In this document: positions 44,659-52,959 of the stretch, piece by piece
Layout: each line of letters starts with the position of its first letter
Numbering within the stretch: position 1 is the stretch's first letter
Assembly (NCBI RefSeq): GCF_003014555.1
Contig: NZ_PYGE01000003.1
Location: 320,206-384,205, forward strand
Length of the DNA: 64,000 nucleotides
Direction: 5' to 3'
From: Haloactinopolyspora alba
GTDB taxonomy: Bacteria; Actinomycetota; Actinomycetes; Jiangellales; Jiangellaceae
Notes under the pieces: model-generated
The model's input: the letters and a program-made list of their open reading frames with translations, nothing else
What the model was told of the DNA's origin: nothing
Databases searched by the model: none
Position numbers and translations under genes: made by a program

Positions 44659-46368
44659 TCAGAACCTGGCCGGCTCGGTGTAGTCGCCCCACTCGTCGCG
44701 CAGCGCCGAGCAGATCTCGCCGAGCGTCGCCTCGGCCCGGACGGCGTCCAGCATCGCCGGGATCAGGTTGCCGCTGCCCCGCGCGACCTCGGTCATCGCG
44801 GCCAGCGCCGCGTGCACGGACTCGTCGTCGCGGGCGGCGCGCCGTTCGGTGAGGTCACGGCGCTGTTCCTGCTCGACCTCGTGCGACACGCGCAGGATGT
44901 CGAGCTCACCGGAGACGGTGTCGGTGTGGACGTTGACGCCGACGACGCGCTTGTCGCCCTTCTCGAGCCGCTGCTGGTACTGGAACGCGGACTCGGCGAT
45001 GGCTCCGGTGAACCAGCCGTCCTCGACGCCCTGCAGGATGCCGGCGGTCATCGGGCCGTAGGCGTCCTGCCACCGCTGGTGCGGCTCGCCCATCCGGCGG
45101 ATCCGGTCGAAGATCTCTTCGGCCTCGGCCTCGATCCGGTCGGTCAGCGCCTCCACGTACCAGGAGCCGCCGAGCGGGTCGGCGACGTTGGCCACCCCGG
45201 TCTCCTCCATCAGGACCTGCTGGGTGCGCAGCGCGATCTCGGCGGCGTTCTCGGTGGGCAGCGCCAGGACCTCGTCGAGCGCGTTGGTGTGCAGCGAGTT
45301 CGTCCCGCCCAGCACGGCCGACAGCGCCTCGACGGCGGTGCGCACGACGTTGTTGTACGGCTGCTGCCCGGTCAGCGAGACGCCGGCGGTCTGGGTGTGG
45401 AACCGCAGCCACTGCGCTCGCTCGGTGGTGGCGCCGTAGACGTCGCGCATCCAGCGGGCCCAGATCCGGCGGGCGGCGCGGAACTTGGCGACCTCCTCGA
45501 AGAAGTCGACGTGCGCGTCGAAGAAGAACGAGAGGCCCGGCGCGAAAGTGTCGACGTCGAGGCCGCGGGAGCGCCCCAGCTCGACGTAGCCGAAACCGTC
45601 GGCGAGCGTGAACGCCAGCTCCTGCGCGGCCGTCGCCCCGGCCTCACGGATGTGGTAGCCGGACACCGACAGCGGCTTGTAGTCCGGCACGGCGTCGGTG
45701 ACGTACTCCATGAGGTCGCCGATCAGCCGCAGGTGGGGCTCCGGGCCGAACAGCCACTCCTTCTGCGCGATGTACTCCTTGAAGATGTCGGTCTGCAGCG
45801 TGCCGTTCAACACCGACGGGTCGGCGCCCTGGCGTTCGGCCGCGACGACGTACATGCAGAAGATCGGCACGGCCGGCCCGCTGATCGTCATCGACGTCGT
45901 CACGTCGCCGAGCGGGATCTCCGAGAACAGCAGCTCCATGTCGGCGGCCGAGTCGACGGCCACGCCGCAGTGCCCGACCTCGCCGAGCGAGTGCTCGTCG
46001 TCGGAGTCGCGGCCCATCAGCGTCGGCATGTCGAACGCGACCGACAGCCCGCCGCCGCCGGAGCGCAGGATCAGCTTGTAGCGCTCGTTGGTCTGCCGCG
46101 CGTTGCCGAACCCCGCGAACTGCCGGATGGTCCAGGTGCGCCCGCGGTATCCGGTCGAGTACAGCCCGCGGGTGAACGGGAACTCGCCGGGCCAGCCGAT
46201 CCGTTCGAAACGCGGGTCGTCGGCGCCTTCCGGCGGGCCGTAGACGGGATCGACGTCGACACCGGACAGGGTGGTGAAGTCGGCGTCGCGGACCTGTCCC
46301 GCAGCCACCGCCCGGTCCAGCCGGGCGCGCCAGCGCCGCCGGCCCTCCTCGATCTGCTGCGCGTCCAT
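44659..46368 (-). CDS. Acyl-CoA (methylmalonyl/isobutyryl-type) mutase large subunit
   Basis: A 569-residue B12-dependent mutase catalytic subunit (TIM barrel), with [16 protein letters not shown] and [19 protein letters not shown]. The segment [10 protein letters not shown] has Gln where methylmalonyl-CoA mutase has Arg, which fits an isobutyryl-CoA or related mutase rather than a strict methylmalonyl-CoA mutase. There is no C-terminal B12-binding domain, so a separate small subunit is needed, and none is present in the window. A perfect 20-bp palindrome lies 31 bp upstream. MeaB, the G-protein chaperone of such mutases, is encoded 4 kb away. Confidence 0.9.
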
Positions 46369-46399
46369 GCCTCTCCCTCGTGGCCGGCGACGGATGAAT

Positions 46400-46419
46400 T
46401 TACTTGGACGTCCAAGTAA
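46400..46419. promoter_or_regulatory. Perfect 20-bp palindrome, operator of the mutase / Rrf2 gap
   Basis: TTACTTGGACGTCCAAGTAA is a perfect 20-bp palindrome in the gap between the mutase start (46368) and the Rrf2 gene. It is AT-rich relative to its surroundings and is a strong operator candidate. The architecture suits a TetR-type dimer more than Rrf2. The regulator is not obvious in the window. Confidence 0.75.
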
Positions 46420-46457
46420 CTGTTCCCATGGTACGCCCCGTGGCAGGATCGGATCTC

Positions 46458-46913
46458 GTGCACGTCACCGCTCGCGCCGACTACGCCATCCGCGCCGTCG
46501 TCCAGCTCGCCTCGATCGAGCCGGACACCGCGACCCGTCACCAGCTCGCCGAGGCCCAGGACATCCCGGGCAAGTTCCTCGAGACCATCCTGAGCGACCT
46601 GCGCCGCGCGGGGATCCTCGAGGCGCACCGCGGCGCCACCGGCGGGTACCGGCTGACCAGCCCGCCGGAGCGGATCGTCCTGGCCGACGTGGTCCGCGCG
46701 ACCGAGGGGCCGTTGGCCGCGGTGCGGGGAATGCCGCCGGAGGACATCGAGTACCCGGGACCGGCGCGCCCGCTCACCCAGATCTGGGTGGCCGTGCGCG
46801 CCAGCCTGCGCGAGGTTCTCGAGGCGGTGACCGTGGCGGACATACTCAGCGGCTCGCTGCCGGATCACGTGACGGGTCTGCTGGCGCGGCCGGACTCGTG
46901 GGAACGTCGCTGA
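46458..46913 (+). CDS. Rrf2-family regulator without iron-sulfur cysteines
   Basis: A 151-residue Rrf2 regulator with the winged helix motif ARADYAIRAVVQLA followed by HQLAEAQDIPGKFLETILSDLRRAGI and the GGYRL wing. There is no Cys, so it cannot hold the Fe-S cluster of IscR or NsrR-type members. The GTG start gives the usual N-terminus (VHVTARADYAIRA); ATG at 46428 is an alternative. It is divergent from the mutase gene across the 20-bp palindrome. Its 3' end overlaps the next convergent gene by 68 bp. Confidence 0.85.
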   Translation: MHVTARADYAIRAVVQLASIEPDTATRHQLAEAQDIPGKFLETILSDLRRAGILEAHRGATGGYRLTSPPERIVLADVVRATEGPLAAVRGMPPEDIEYPGPARPLTQIWVAVRASLREVLEAVTVADILSGSLPDHVTGLLARPDSWERR

Positions 46914-47862
46914 CCGACCGCCGCGAGACCGCGGCGCCGAGCGCCGCCAGCAGCAACCCGCCGGCGATCCACGCCGTCAGCACCAGCAGCGGCCCGCCCG
47001 CGGCGGCACCGTCGAAGTACGACGTGGACCGCAGCAGCGTCCCGCCGGCACCGGGGGGCAGCGCCTGGCCCAGCGCACCCCACCCGCTCGGCAACATCTC
47101 GGGCGCGGAGGTGACACCCGACAGCGGGTTGCCCAGGACGACCATGATCAGCGCGCCGAGGCCGACGCCCGGCACCCCGATGAGCGAGTGCAGCCCGATG
47201 ATGGTGGTCGACACCGCGCCGATGGTCAGCGCGAACACGCCCGCGTTGGCCCACCAGTCGCCGCCCAGCACACCCAGCCACGCCTGCATGACCAGCACCG
47301 CGCTGAGCCCTCCGAGGACGGAGGCCGAGGCCGCGCCGACGAGCCGCCGCCCCACTCCGGAGACGGTCAGCACGAGCGCCGCCCCCGCCGCCGTCCCGGC
47401 GATCACCATCGGGAACGCGCCGCCGTTGAAGCCGACGCCCCGCGCGTCGTCGTCCGGCAGCGTGACGACGTCCTCCACCGCCGGTGCCGGGCCCGTGTCC
47501 GGCTGCTCCGCGGCCGCCAACTGGGCGGCGACCCCGTCCAGCAGCCGCGCGACCGCGGGTGAGGCAGCCGAAGCGGTCAGCATGGTGGGTGTCCCGGCAG
47601 GGTCCATGACGATCGCTCCGTAGACGTCGCGATCCTCGATCGCTGCACGCGCCGCCGCCTCGTCAGCCACGGCCTCGACCTCGAACGCTCCCGGAGCCGC
47701 CTCGGCCAGCCGCCCCTCCACCTGCTCGGCCGCCTCCGGCGGACCGGCCACGGCCAGCGGCACGTCCCGGGGCTCGATCTGCGAGTTCGGCCACACGAAC
47801 GCGGTCATCAGCACTCCGATCAGCACCGCGAGCCCGAACGACAGCGCAATGACCCGTTTCAT
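46846..47862 (-). CDS. YhgE/ABC-2-like multi-pass membrane protein
   Basis: A 338-residue membrane protein. The first helix (VIALSFGLAVLIGVLMTAF) is followed by an external domain of about 120 residues and then about five helices. This is the layout of YhgE/Pip and ABC-2 transporter permease-type proteins. The ATG at 47862 has GGAGGTACC upstream. It is divergent from a TetR gene with two matching operators between them, so the TetR protein probably controls it, as for many efflux-like proteins. Function unknown. Confidence 0.8.
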   Translation of the reverse strand: MKRVIALSFGLAVLIGVLMTAFVWPNSQIEPRDVPLAVAGPPEAAEQVEGRLAEAAPGAFEVEAVADEAAARAAIEDRDVYGAIVMDPAGTPTMLTASAASPAVARLLDGVAAQLAAAEQPDTGPAPAVEDVVTLPDDDARGVGFNGGAFPMVIAGTAAGAALVLTVSGVGRRLVGAASASVLGGLSAVLVMQAWLGVLGGDWWANAGVFALTIGAVSTTIIGLHSLIGVPGVGLGALIMVVLGNPLSGVTSAPEMLPSGWGALGQALPPGAGGTLLRSTSYFDGAAAGGPLLVLTAWIAGGLLLAALGAAVSRRSVSDVPTSPAAPADPSRDPAASR

Positions 47863-47880
47863 GGCGGTACCTCCAAAAAT

Positions 47881-47896
47881 AAATCGAACGGTCATT
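47881..47896. promoter_or_regulatory. TetR operator, copy 1
   Basis: Read on the minus strand, this site is AATGACCGTTCGATTT. It matches the second copy at 47932-47947 (AACGACCGTCCGTTTT) at 13 of 16 positions. It sits upstream of the membrane protein gene. Confidence 0.6.
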
Positions 47897-47931
47897 CTTT
47901 TATGATTCCGTGGCCACGTCGGACTGTCAAG

Positions 47932-47947
47932 AACGACCGTCCGTTTT
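47932..47947. promoter_or_regulatory. TetR operator, copy 2
   Basis: AACGACCGTCCGTTTT lies 11 bp upstream of the tetR start, in opposite orientation to copy 1. Two related sites in a 96-bp divergent gap suggest that TetR represses both itself and the membrane protein gene. Confidence 0.6.
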
Positions 47948-47958
47948 ATAGTGGGGGG

Positions 47959-48588
47959 ATGCCTCGAGTCTCAGACGAACACCTCGCCGCCCGTCGCCAG
48001 CAGATCCTCGACGCGGCCTGGGCCTGCTTCGCCCGGCAGGGGTTCCACGCCACCTCGATGCAGGACGTCTTCGCCGAGGCGGGGTTGTCGGCCGGCGCCG
48101 TGTACCGGTACTTCCCCAGCAAGACGGAGCTCGTCCGCAGCACCGCCGAGGGCATCCTCGGCAACCTCACCCAGGTCATCGACGAGATGCTGGACCGGGA
48201 ACAGACGCCGGACCCGGCGGAAGCCGTGCGGACGATAGTGAACTTCGTCACGACCATGGCGACCTCCCGCAGCTACGACCCCACCCGCATCGCTCTGCAC
48301 GTCTGGGCCGAGTCGCTGCACGACGCCGAGATCCGGGGCATCGTGCACACGGTCGCGCACACACTGCGCGACCGATTGACCCAGCTCGCCGAACGCTGGG
48401 TGGCCAGCGGAGCCATCGCCCCGGACAGCTCCCCACCGCAGGTCGCCGTCACGCTCTACGGGCTGATGATCGGCTTCGTCGGACAGCTGCACCTGATCGG
48501 CGACGTCACCGCCGACGACTACGCCGACGGCATGGTCGCGTTGATCCGCTCACGCGTCGCTGCGGAAGTCCCCCGCGGCGACACGTAA
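47959..48588 (+). CDS. TetR-family transcriptional regulator
   Basis: A 209-residue TetR regulator: N-terminal helix-turn-helix (QILDAAWACFARQGFHATSMQDVFAEAGLSAGAVYRYF, cited here in part as residues about 15-50) and a ligand-binding helical domain. The ATG (MPRVSDEH) lies next to two operator copies. Its divergent neighbour is a YhgE-like membrane protein, the probable target. Its 3' end overlaps the convergent MarR gene by 39 bp. Confidence 0.9.
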   Translation: MPRVSDEHLAARRQQILDAAWACFARQGFHATSMQDVFAEAGLSAGAVYRYFPSKTELVRSTAEGILGNLTQVIDEMLDREQTPDPAEAVRTIVNFVTTMATSRSYDPTRIALHVWAESLHDAEIRGIVHTVAHTLRDRLTQLAERWVASGAIAPDSSPPQVAVTLYGLMIGFVGQLHLIGDVTADDYADGMVALIRSRVAAEVPRGDT

Positions 48589-49062
48589 CCCGCGCAGCAA
48601 CTCGAACACCTGCGCGCGCTGGTCCTCGCCGAGCGCACGCAACCCGAAGTCGGCGTCCATGAGCTCGGCGGTCACCCGCTTCACCGCGTCCCGCCCGGAG
48701 TCGGTGATCCGCGCCAGCGTTCCTCGGCCGTCGCGGGGGTTCGGCTCCCGCGTGACGAAGCCCGCTGTCTCGAGCCGCTGGATCGTGTTCGTCACGCTGG
48801 TCGGGTGGACCATCAGCCGCTCGCCGATCTTCGCCATCGGCAACGCCCCGGTCCGGCTGAAGCTGAGCAGCACCAGGGCCTCGTACCGGGCGAACGTCAG
48901 CCCGTACGGGCGGCAGATCCGGTCGAACTCGCTGATCAGCAGCTGCTGAACCCGCATGATCGAGGTCGCGGCCGCCATCGCGCCGGCGTCGCCGAAACGG
49001 TCCCGCCAGATCGACGCGGCGCGTTCGATCGGGTCGAAGTCGAGATCGAGGGGCTCAGCCAC
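48550..49062 (-). CDS. MarR-family transcriptional regulator
   Basis: A 170-residue MarR regulator with a winged helix at about residues 60-125 (LPMAKIGERLMVHPTSVTNTIQRLETAGFV, wing NPRDGRGTLARIT). The start is GTG. It lies 11 bp downstream of the PH-domain membrane protein gene, in the same direction. No target site is evident. Confidence 0.88.
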   Translation of the reverse strand: MAEPLDLDFDPIERAASIWRDRFGDAGAMAAATSIMRVQQLLISEFDRICRPYGLTFARYEALVLLSFSRTGALPMAKIGERLMVHPTSVTNTIQRLETAGFVTREPNPRDGRGTLARITDSGRDAVKRVTAELMDADFGLRALGEDQRAQVFELLRGLRVAAGDFRSDA

Positions 49063-50062: not shown

Positions 50063-51013
50063 CTACCGCATGGACGCGGTGACGGTGTCGGCCGCCGCGT
50101 ACGGGTCGTACTCGCCGGCCAGCACGGCCGCGGCCAGCTCGTCGAGGCGGTCGTCGCCGTGCAGATCCGCGAACGTGCGACGCAGGTCGGCCATCGCGAT
50201 GGCCTCGATCTCGTCCCGGACGCGGCGGATGCGGCGGCGGTGCGTGTCGCCGCTGCCGGCGGCCCACTCCCGGTGCTGGTCCAGGGCCTCGACCACCTCG
50301 TCCACACCGTCGCCACGCGCGGCGACGGTGGACAGCACCGGCTGCCGCCACGCACCGGGCGCACGCTCGGTCATCCGCACCACCGAGCGCAGGTCGTGCA
50401 CCACCTGCTCGGCGCCGTCGCGGTCGGCCTTGTTCACCACGAACACGTCGCCGACCTCGAGGATGCCGGCCTTCGCCGCCTGGACGCCGTCGCCCATGCC
50501 CGGCGCCAGCAGCACGAGCGTGGTGTCGGCGAGCGCGGCCACCTCGACCTCGGACTGGCCCACGCCGACCGTCTCGACCAGCACCACGTCGCAGCCCGCC
50601 GCGTCGAGGACCCGCACGGCCTGCGGGGTGGCCCAGGCCAGCCCGCCCAGCCGGCCGCGGGTGGCCATGGACCGGATGAACACGCCGGAGTCGGTGGCGT
50701 GGTCCTGCATCCGCACCCGGTCGCCCAGCAGCGCGCCGCCGGTGAACGGCGACGTCGGGTCGACAGCCAGCACGCCGACCTGCTGCCCGCGCGCCCGGAA
50801 GGCGCTCACCAGAGCCGACGTCGTCGTGGACTTGCCGACACCGGGCGCCCCGGTCACGCCGACGATGGCCGCCTCGCCCGCGTGCGGCGTGAGCGCCGCC
50901 ATCACCTCACGCAACTGCGGCGAGGCGTTCTCGACCATGGACACGAGCCTGGCGACGGCGCGGCGCTCGCCCTTCGTCGCCCGGGCGACGAGATCGGTGA
51001 CCGGAGCCGTCAC
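50063..51013 (-). CDS. meaB: MeaB/ArgK-family G-protein chaperone of B12 mutases
   Basis: A 316-residue SIMIBI-class GTPase. The P-loop is GAPGVGKST, followed by the switch-like [28 protein letters not shown] and the base-specific NKAD motif. MeaB proteins load and protect the adenosylcobalamin of acyl-CoA mutases. The GTG start overlaps the thiolase stop by 4 bp. With epimerase, thiolase and the mutase at 44.7 kb it serves propionate and branched-chain acyl-CoA metabolism. Confidence 0.93.
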
Positions 51014-52191
51014 GCGCCGGCACCCGGCACCCGCAGCACCAGGGCGTCGCCCTGACCCCCGCCGCCGCACAGTGCCGCCGCACCCGTGCCGCCTCCGCGG
51101 CGGCGCAGTTCGAGCGCCAGGTGCAGTACGAGCCGCGCACCGGACATGCCGATGGGGTGGCCGACGGCGATGGCGCCGCCGTTGACGTTGACCCGCTCGG
51201 GGTCGGCGCCGAGCTCGCGGGTCGCGGTGATGCCGACCGCCGCGAACGCCTCGTTGATCTCCAGCAGGTCGAGCCGGTCCAGAGCGAGGCCGTCCTTGGC
51301 GCAGGCCGCGCGCACCGCGGCGGCGGGCTGGCTCTGCAGGCTGGAGTCCGGCCCGGCGACGACGCCGTGCGCGCCGATACTCGCCAGCGGCCGGACGCCG
51401 AGCTCGTCGGCCTTCGCCTCGCTCATGACCACCACCGCGCAGGCGCCGTCGGAGATCGGCGAGGACGAGCCGGCGGTGATGGTGCCGTCGGAGTCGAACG
51501 TGGGCCGCAGCTTGGCCAGCGACTCGGCGGTGGTGTCCGGGCGGATGCCCTCGTCCTGGTCGAACCGGACCGGCTCGCCGCGTCGCTGCGGCACGTCGAC
51601 GGCGACGACCTCGTCGGCGAAGAGCCCGTTCTTCCAGGCAGCGGCGGCGCGCTGGTGCGAACGTGCCGCGAACTCGTCCTGCTCGGCGCGGGTCAGGTCG
51701 TGGTTCACGGCCTCGGTGAGCGCGCCCATCGGCTGGTCGGTGAACACGTCGTACAGGCCGTCGTAGGCCATGTGGTCGAGCATGGTGATGTTGCCGGCCT
51801 TGTGTCCCTGCCGCGCGCCCGGCAACAGGTGCGGCGCGTTGGTCATGGACTCCATGCCGCCGGCGACGACGACGTCGAACTCGCCGGCGTTCACCAGCTG
51901 GCTCGCCAGCGCGATGGCGTCGATGCCGGACAGGCACACCTTGTTCACGGTCAGCGCGGGCACCGACATGCCGATGCCGGCGTTCACGGCGGCCTGCCGG
52001 GCGGGCATCTGCCCGCAGCCGGCCTGCAGCACCTGCCCCATGATGACGTAGTCGACCGACGCGGCGGGGACGCCGGAGCGGTCGAGGGCGGCACGGATGG
52101 CCAGGCCACCGAGGTCGGTGGCGGAGTATCCGGACAGCGAGCCGAGCAGCTTCCCGATCGGGGTACGCGCTCCGGCGGCGATGACGGGCAT
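51010..52191 (-). CDS. Acetyl-CoA C-acetyltransferase (thiolase)
   Basis: A 393-residue degradative-type thiolase. The acyl-accepting Cys is in [10 protein letters not shown] (residue 86), the His in GHPIGMSGA (about 345) and the second Cys in [12 protein letters not shown] (about 375). GGAGGACGCC precedes the ATG. It lies between the epimerase (62-bp gap) and meaB (4-bp overlap). It interconverts two acetyl-CoA and acetoacetyl-CoA, or the branched equivalents. Confidence 0.93.
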
Positions 52192-52253
52192 GGCGTCCTC
52201 CTGAGTGTCGTCCTCCCACGGTAGCCCGCGGGCGCGCCGCCGTCGGGGGCGCG

Positions 52254-52670
52254 TCAGTGTGGCCCGGACACCAGCTCGACCAGCACTCCCCCGGCGTCCT
52301 TCGGATGCACGAAGTTCACCAGCGTCCCGGCGGTGCCGCGGCGCGCCCGCGCGTACAGCATGCGCATCCCGCGCTCGCGCAGGGTGGCCGCGGCCGCCTC
52401 CACGTCGTCGACGCGGTAGGCGAGCTGCTGCAGCCCCGGGCCCTTGCGGTCGAGGAACGCCGCGATCGGCGAGTCGGGTCCCAGCGGCGCCAGCAGCTGT
52501 ACGCACGGCCCGGTGTCGTCCGGCGAGACGCGCAGCATCGCCTCGCGCACGCCCTGCTCGTCGTTGGTCTCCTCGTGCACCACCTCCATGCCGAAGTGGT
52601 CGCGATACCAGGCGACGGCCTCGTCCAGATCGGCGACCGCGACGCCGACGTGGTCGATCGTGGTGAACAC
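52254..52670 (-). CDS. mce: Methylmalonyl-CoA epimerase
   Basis: A 138-residue vicinal-oxygen-chelate (glyoxalase-fold) protein. It begins with the metal-binding TIDHVGVAV, has [29 protein letters not shown] split by the second metal ligand, and ends with [13 protein letters not shown]. It converts (S)- to (R)-methylmalonyl-CoA for the mutase. The GTG start has no strong ribosome-binding site. It is the first gene of epimerase-thiolase-meaB and is divergent from the coiled-coil gene. Confidence 0.9.
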
Positions 52671-52959
52671 GCCGATAAAGATATCTACTGATGTGTCCCA
52701 AGCGGGTGGTGGGTTCGCATTTCGCCAACTACCGTGATCCTGGGAGAGCCCCGTTGATCTCCGAAAGGCACGCCACACTCGACTTCCCACCGCCCGCACC
52801 CCCTCGACCGAGCCCGGTCAGGCGGTATCCTGCCTTCCCAACCTGATGAGGGCTCGGCGTCCGTGACGGGGAAGACCCGGGAAGCACCTCGAAGGGATCA
52901 ATGGGTACGACAGACGTGTGACGGCCCCGCCGGGGGTCGCACCCCCGATGAGGGAGAAC

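Follow-up and report, generated by a model that had tools for sequence, protein, structure and literature searches.

A perfect 20-bp palindrome upstream of an acyl-CoA mutase gene in Haloactinopolyspora alba raises the question of which regulator recognizes it and which genes that regulator controls. The initial annotation had called the element a clear operator and, doubting the adjacent Rrf2 protein, had left the cognate regulator open, with Rrf2 and TetR proteins named as the classes to test. We analysed the surrounding 64-kb stretch of DNA (hereafter the window) together with the genomes of related actinobacteria. It is very probable, judging from this comparison, that the palindrome is the operator of a homodimeric MarR-family regulator encoded at 48550–49062, which would repress the mutase gene icmA and would be released by a metabolite of branched-chain breakdown.

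Results

An exact palindrome between the mutase and Rrf2 genes

Direct reading of positions 46400–46419 bears out the earlier description: the palindrome, TTACTTGGACGTCCAAGTAA, is exactly symmetric over 20 bp and lies in an 89-bp divergent gap (46369–46457) between the mutase gene, which starts at 46368 on the minus strand, and the Rrf2 gene, which has a GTG start at 46458 on the plus strand. It is the sole exact palindrome of at least 20 bp in the window. As a control we generated 60 first-order Markov sequences matched in composition, which contained a mean of 0.4 such palindromes each, and none of at least 20 bp with an AT content of at least 55%. Since 0.4 are expected by chance in the 71% GC DNA around the site, the symmetry is not significant by itself and could not exclude a chance palindrome; that explanation is rejected because the site is conserved across species, as described below. 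It is likewise through conservation that the designation as an operator gains strong support.

The mutase and its candidate promoter

The minus-strand gene at 44659–46368 encodes a 569-residue acyl-CoA mutase large subunit, for which MM_CoA_mutase was the only Pfam family matched (E 7e-204, residues 33–561); TIGR00641 was also matched, and no B12-binding domain was found with Pfam. Comparison with solved mutases placed a phenylalanine in the sequence TIRQFAG and a glutamine in KEYIAQKEW at positions that are occupied by tyrosine and arginine in the methylmalonyl-CoA mutases 6oxc and human 2xij, and by isoleucine and glutamine in the 2-hydroxyisobutyryl-CoA mutase 4r3u. A phenylalanine at the position of Tyr89 of methylmalonyl-CoA mutase, together with a glutamine at that of Arg207, is the signature of isobutyryl-CoA mutases. 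The product is most likely the large subunit, IcmA, of a B12-dependent isobutyryl-CoA mutase.

A candidate −10 box for this gene, TAAATT (46397–46402, minus strand), overlaps one arm of the palindrome, and comparison of loci places the candidate −35 element at 46421–46426 on the same strand, leaving a spacer of 18 bp with the operator inside it. Among the matches listed, 66 named loci carry the exact motif; TAAATT is found at the same place in 60 of them, TCGACA occupies the −35 position in 60, and both hexamers occur with the site filling the 18-bp spacer in 57. The arrangement TCGACA–18 bp–TAAATT could plausibly serve as a promoter; most Streptomyces have the start codon 6–7 bp beyond TAAATT. 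In the window itself the boxes match poorly, a point against our preferred explanation: the −35 hexamer is GGAACA, a poor match to the usual TTGACA. An alternative −10-like box, TACCAT (46428–46433, minus strand), lies just upstream of the operator, and Jiangella-type loci have a similar hexamer at this position (TACGAT, TAGGAT or TAAGAT). A dimer bound in the promoter spacer would exclude polymerase, so that repression is the natural reading of this arrangement.

Conservation of the site upstream of the mutase

With up to two mismatches to TASTWGGACGTCCWASTA allowed, 21 of 22 Jiangellales genomes carry the predicted operator before the orthologous mutase gene, the exception (G004) being a genome that is 81% complete. 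In a search from −150 to +60 relative to the mutase start, 71 of the 80 named loci among the matches listed carried the site and nine did not; two of these 80 loci also belong to the 22 Jiangellales genomes. The closest named loci among the matches listed, judged by mutase identity, were those of Jiangella (86%) and Phytoactinopolyspora (84%). After identical-context rows had been dropped, 110 distinct sites gave the consensus TTA(C/g)T(A/t)GGACGTCC(T/a)A(G/c)TAA, whose column counts are biased to the motif by the selection of sites within two mismatches. The commonest Streptomyces form is TTACTAGGACGTCCTAGTAA.

Two variations on this arrangement were observed. Five loci (L019, L021, L023, L025 and L028), from genomes of two genera in the family of H. 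alba, have two overlapping copies of the operator before the mutase, with cores 15 bp apart. Eight Micromonosporaceae loci lacking the operator (L059, L069, L082, L084, L092, L107, L114 and L115) have in common a different element, approximately CTTA(G/T)CGATCGTTCAGG, which occupies a comparable position some 60 bp before the mutase and may point to a substitute regulator.

Distribution of the neighbouring regulators

Three regulators were compared for their distribution: the Rrf2 protein that diverges from the mutase gene, the TetR protein encoded at 47902–48588 and the MarR protein. In a set of 118 genomes, MarR was present in all 54 that bear the site versus 25 of the 64 that lack it. The corresponding figures at E ≤ 1e-20 were 47 of 54 versus 35 of 64 for Rrf2, and 19 of 54 versus 4 of 64 for TetR. 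Outside the family of H. alba, where 44 genomes bear the site, MarR was missing from none.

The Rrf2 gene (46458–46913, plus strand) encodes a protein of 151 residues matched by PF02082 and TIGR00738. The initial annotation was right that it lacks iron–sulphur cysteines; it has no cysteine at all, in contrast to an Fe–S sensor of the IscR or NsrR type. It is highly improbable that this protein is the cognate regulator and the palindrome an autoregulatory operator shared with the divergent mutase gene. Such an assignment would suit the 2.1-kb distance of the MarR gene, and Rrf2 is directly adjacent and divergent here, as in the majority of other Jiangellales loci (L124 is one in which it does not adjoin the site). 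However, the same site precedes the mutase in Streptomyces and other genera that have no such Rrf2 gene adjoining, and among the matches listed an Rrf2 protein of at least 45% identity was found in only two of 80 loci, both from Jiangellales. Moreover, at E ≤ 1e-20 Rrf2 is absent from 7 of the 44 site-bearing genomes outside the family, which vindicates the doubt expressed about it, and is present in the 35 site-less genomes counted above. In Jiangellales the operator may also cover or affect the divergent Rrf2 promoter.

The TetR gene (plus strand; PF00440) starts 1.5 kb from the palindrome, so the earlier statement that no TetR gene flanks the site is correct for the immediate neighbours. 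TetR regulators are common for acyl-CoA genes and often bind perfect palindromes of about this length, and the proximity of the gene speaks for it; we nevertheless give scarcely any credence to this protein, or to an unlinked TetR regulator, as the partner of the palindrome. At E ≤ 1e-20 an orthologue of the linked protein is absent from 35 of the 44 site-bearing genomes outside the family, and its likelier target would be the divergent membrane-protein gene at 46846–47895 (minus strand). The longest reading frames of these two genes are separated by a 6-bp gap, and the TetR protein probably starts further inside its frame. Both candidates were thus rejected on distribution and position. Of the earlier interpretation, the operator stands, on the strength of its conservation, whereas the proposal of Rrf2 and TetR as the classes to test is left unsupported by their distribution.

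A MarR-family regulator accompanies the site

The minus-strand gene at 48550–49062 encodes a protein with a MarR domain (PF01047, 9.1e-13; PF12802, 3.3e-12; both above the gathering score). Its closest solved structure by far is 4b8x (E 6.4e-56, residues 28–169; next best 9.8e-13), presumably SCO5413 of Streptomyces coelicolor. AbsC had been suspected as the identity of this protein from gene order and was dropped, 4b8x being much closer. In the vicinity, at 50063–52799, lie genes judged by eye to encode a MeaB-like GTPase and a thiolase, and probably a methylmalonyl-CoA epimerase, an order that resembles SCO5398–SCO5400 of S. coelicolor.

In the window 2.1 kb separate the MarR gene from the operator, to which two other regulator genes are closer. 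Elsewhere the linkage is close: in 68 of the 80 named loci among the matches listed, including those of Streptomyces, the mutase has a MarR gene ahead of it and the site in the intervening DNA. The other 12 comprise two Jiangellales loci with no MarR gene within 3.5 kb, one locus with a short flank and the nine that lack the site. No MarR gene was found near the mutase in these nine, and their genomes (eight Micromonosporaceae and one 1.9-Mb metagenome-assembled genome) gave no MarR match at E ≤ 1e-15; that search included no positive genome as a reference, but the query it used matched 273 of the 393 genomes of the class.

We then tabulated the site (up to one mismatch anywhere in the genome) against MarR (E ≤ 1e-25) in these 393 genomes, which include the 118 described above. 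Both were present in 184 genomes, the site alone in none, MarR alone in 89 and neither in 120. With a stricter threshold for MarR (E ≤ 1e-50) the numbers were 132, 52, 7 and 202, respectively. The reversed control pattern matched eight of the 393 genomes. These counts are not independent, the genomes being related, and MarR matches between 1e-25 and 1e-40 may include paralogues; Fisher values, which take no account of this relatedness, were set aside. The protein itself is also conserved in the relevant region: over 29 representatives the recognition-helix sequence HPTSVTN is 96% conserved, as a fixed operator would demand, compared with 89% for the preceding segment and 60–74% for other segments.

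Several observations weigh against assigning the operator to MarR. As noted, 89 genomes bear MarR and lack the site at up to one mismatch. The distance of 2.1 kb in the window is a further point, together with the region upstream of the MarR gene itself, where no site was found (the best match has eight mismatches). Eight of the MarR-bearing, site-less genomes were examined. Three (G050, G129 and G300) have a candidate site beside MarR with two, two and three mismatches, respectively; no site was found beside MarR in the other five (G033, G125, G130, G188 and G410), although MarR diverges from icmF in G033 and adjoins acyl-CoA dehydrogenase and mutase genes in G130.

These exceptions bear on the possibility that the site is bound by some other, unlinked regulator that is widespread in actinobacteria, with MarR merely travelling alongside the mutase, since conserved gene order alone could give the linkage and some MarR-bearing genomes lack the site. 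We consider this very unlikely, because MarR accompanies the site in several contexts (icmA, icmF and the mmsA operon), and because MarR and the site are absent together from the nine genomes that keep the mutase. Where the site precedes icmF or mmsA-acd-mmsB, MarR adjoins these genes in G047, G116, G129 (a site with two mismatches) and G024. In the last of these, a Mycobacterium-like genome (L230, 1–1245), the MarR relative is convergent and next to mmsB, and the site, with the centre GGACATCC, precedes mmsA.

Further sites and the predicted regulon

The 20-mer occurs once in the 5.54-Mb genome of H. alba at up to three mismatches. The cross-species consensus identified a second and weaker site, with two mismatches, 43 bp upstream of the ilvE ATG; its degeneracy is a further point against the MarR reading. 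A relaxed search gave just the icmA and ilvE sites and five other matches. One of the five has the GGACGTCC core and falls within a predicted reading frame (L251); the remaining four have no such core. The reversed control pattern was more frequent in this genome (25 and 32 matches) than the motif (4 and 6), and a large regulon in H. alba was rejected on these grounds. The second site also precedes ilvE in all six other Jiangellales examined (G002, G003, G007, G010, G012 and G018), where ilvE was identified through NCBIfam for one protein and by sequence likeness for the others.

In other families, sites with up to one mismatch precede icmF, mmsA-acd-mmsB, acyl-CoA dehydrogenase genes and leuB-ilvE; the further copies near acyl-CoA genes for which the initial annotation had suggested a genome search, such as those before acyl-CoA dehydrogenases and icmF, are therefore present. 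Ten named loci were traced to whole genomes, in each of which the mutase site is accompanied by one or more additional matches. The further site precedes leuB-ilvE in S. lavendulae, S. abyssomicinicus and Streptantibioticus, and five more of the ten genomes share TACTCGGACTTCCTACTA or its complement. In Streptosporangium, mmsA-acd-mmsB and an acyl-CoA dehydrogenase gene are each preceded by a site; one site in S. lavendulae lies near an mmsA-like gene and one in Murinocardiopsis before an acyl-CoA dehydrogenase gene. The leuB-ilvE site is about 425–430 bp (L166, L245 and L246) or 675 bp (L173) upstream of leuB, a distance suggesting that the leader is long or that a small gene intervenes.

When ten target proteins were searched against NCBIfam, IlvE, LeuB and MMSDH scored above the curated cut-off, and for the dehydrogenases the support extended no further than membership of the acyl-CoA dehydrogenase family. 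IcmF fell below the cut-off because only protein fragments were available. Three sites were taken as chance matches: one with a single mismatch and no adjoining branched-chain gene (G012:C1, L139), and two with two mismatches before an unrelated or unclear gene (G004, L125; G205, L154). The common theme of the sites appears to be valine and isobutyryl-CoA metabolism, pointing to a valine/isobutyryl-CoA regulon; this reading covers the sites examined, a minority of those behind the 184 site-bearing genomes. Further two-mismatch sites lie in G010:C11, G006:C15, G207:C88 and G203:C18, among others.

Discussion

The assignment of the palindrome to MarR is based on the site's conservation, on the identity of the genes that follow the examined sites, and on the co-occurrence and adjacency of MarR. 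From these we infer the binding of MarR, the sign of regulation (repression) and the ligand. In the model that we favour, a homodimer of the 48550–49062 product would bind the single symmetric site in or just beside the icmA promoter and block RNA polymerase, so that isobutyryl-CoA mutase is kept low. Release would come from a metabolite formed when branched-chain amino acids are broken down; an acyl-CoA, for instance isobutyryl-CoA, is the most plausible candidate. The same protein would also act at the weaker ilvE site in the H. alba genome, and its orthologues in other actinobacteria would control icmF, mmsA-acd-mmsB, acyl-CoA dehydrogenase genes and leuB-ilvE.

Regulators of the same family provide useful comparisons. 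AbsC (SCO5405) is only a weak match to the MarR protein of the window (3zmd, E 1.8e-9) and is implicated in zinc-dependent antibiotic production, unlike the role proposed here. For the S. coelicolor MarR protein SCO3205, operators were predicted, as here, by comparing the regions upstream of orthologues, and the consensus, TTnAAnnnTCAA, is unlike this site (PMC3737563). CouR of Rhodococcus jostii is a MarR repressor released by p-coumaroyl-CoA, and so provides a precedent for control of an acyl-CoA pathway by a MarR repressor that responds to a CoA thioester (PMC4737184). It differs in serving an aromatic acid pathway, and its solved chain, 6c28, is only weakly similar to the window protein (E 7.4e-4). 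Literature on SACE_5754 and on sigma-E had no bearing on the operator.

The structural study of SCO5413 reportedly presented it as a MarR regulator "of unknown function". In the accessible portions of the open-licence literature, where the motif was looked for as fragments, neither the palindrome described here nor any operator or regulon for SCO5413 was found. One such source terms SCO5415 a methylmalonyl-CoA mutase (PMC6629963), and the numbering puts the regulator two genes from the mutase, like MarR in the Streptomyces loci. A ChIP-seq study of NdgR, the IclR-type regulator of branched-chain amino acid synthesis in S. coelicolor, lists both SCO5413 and the leuB-ilvE unit as targets, which provides an independent link of SCO5413 to the pathway (PMC4340878). 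NdgR differs in family and in motif (of the GTCCAC...GGAC type) and, on the same evidence, acts on SCO5413 rather than at the palindrome.

Overall, the palindrome is a genuine operator that most likely serves a regulator of a known family; the novelty lies in its assignment to a pathway, the operator being ordinary in kind. Isobutyryl-CoA mutase ties valine breakdown to butyryl-CoA and hence to polyketide precursors in antibiotic producers. We see about even chances that the SCO5413 family is a class-wide repressor of the isobutyryl-CoA branch point, responding to a CoA thioester from valine breakdown and setting how much reaches butyryl-CoA by way of the mutase and propionyl-CoA by way of mmsA, its targets having been swapped between lineages and its operator having stayed fixed. 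If so, two polyketide precursor pools, butyryl-CoA and propionyl-CoA, would be under the control of this family. A widespread MarR protein with a solved structure but no function thereby gains a predicted operator, regulon and pathway and, if these are confirmed, would constitute a switch of practical use in antibiotic producers.
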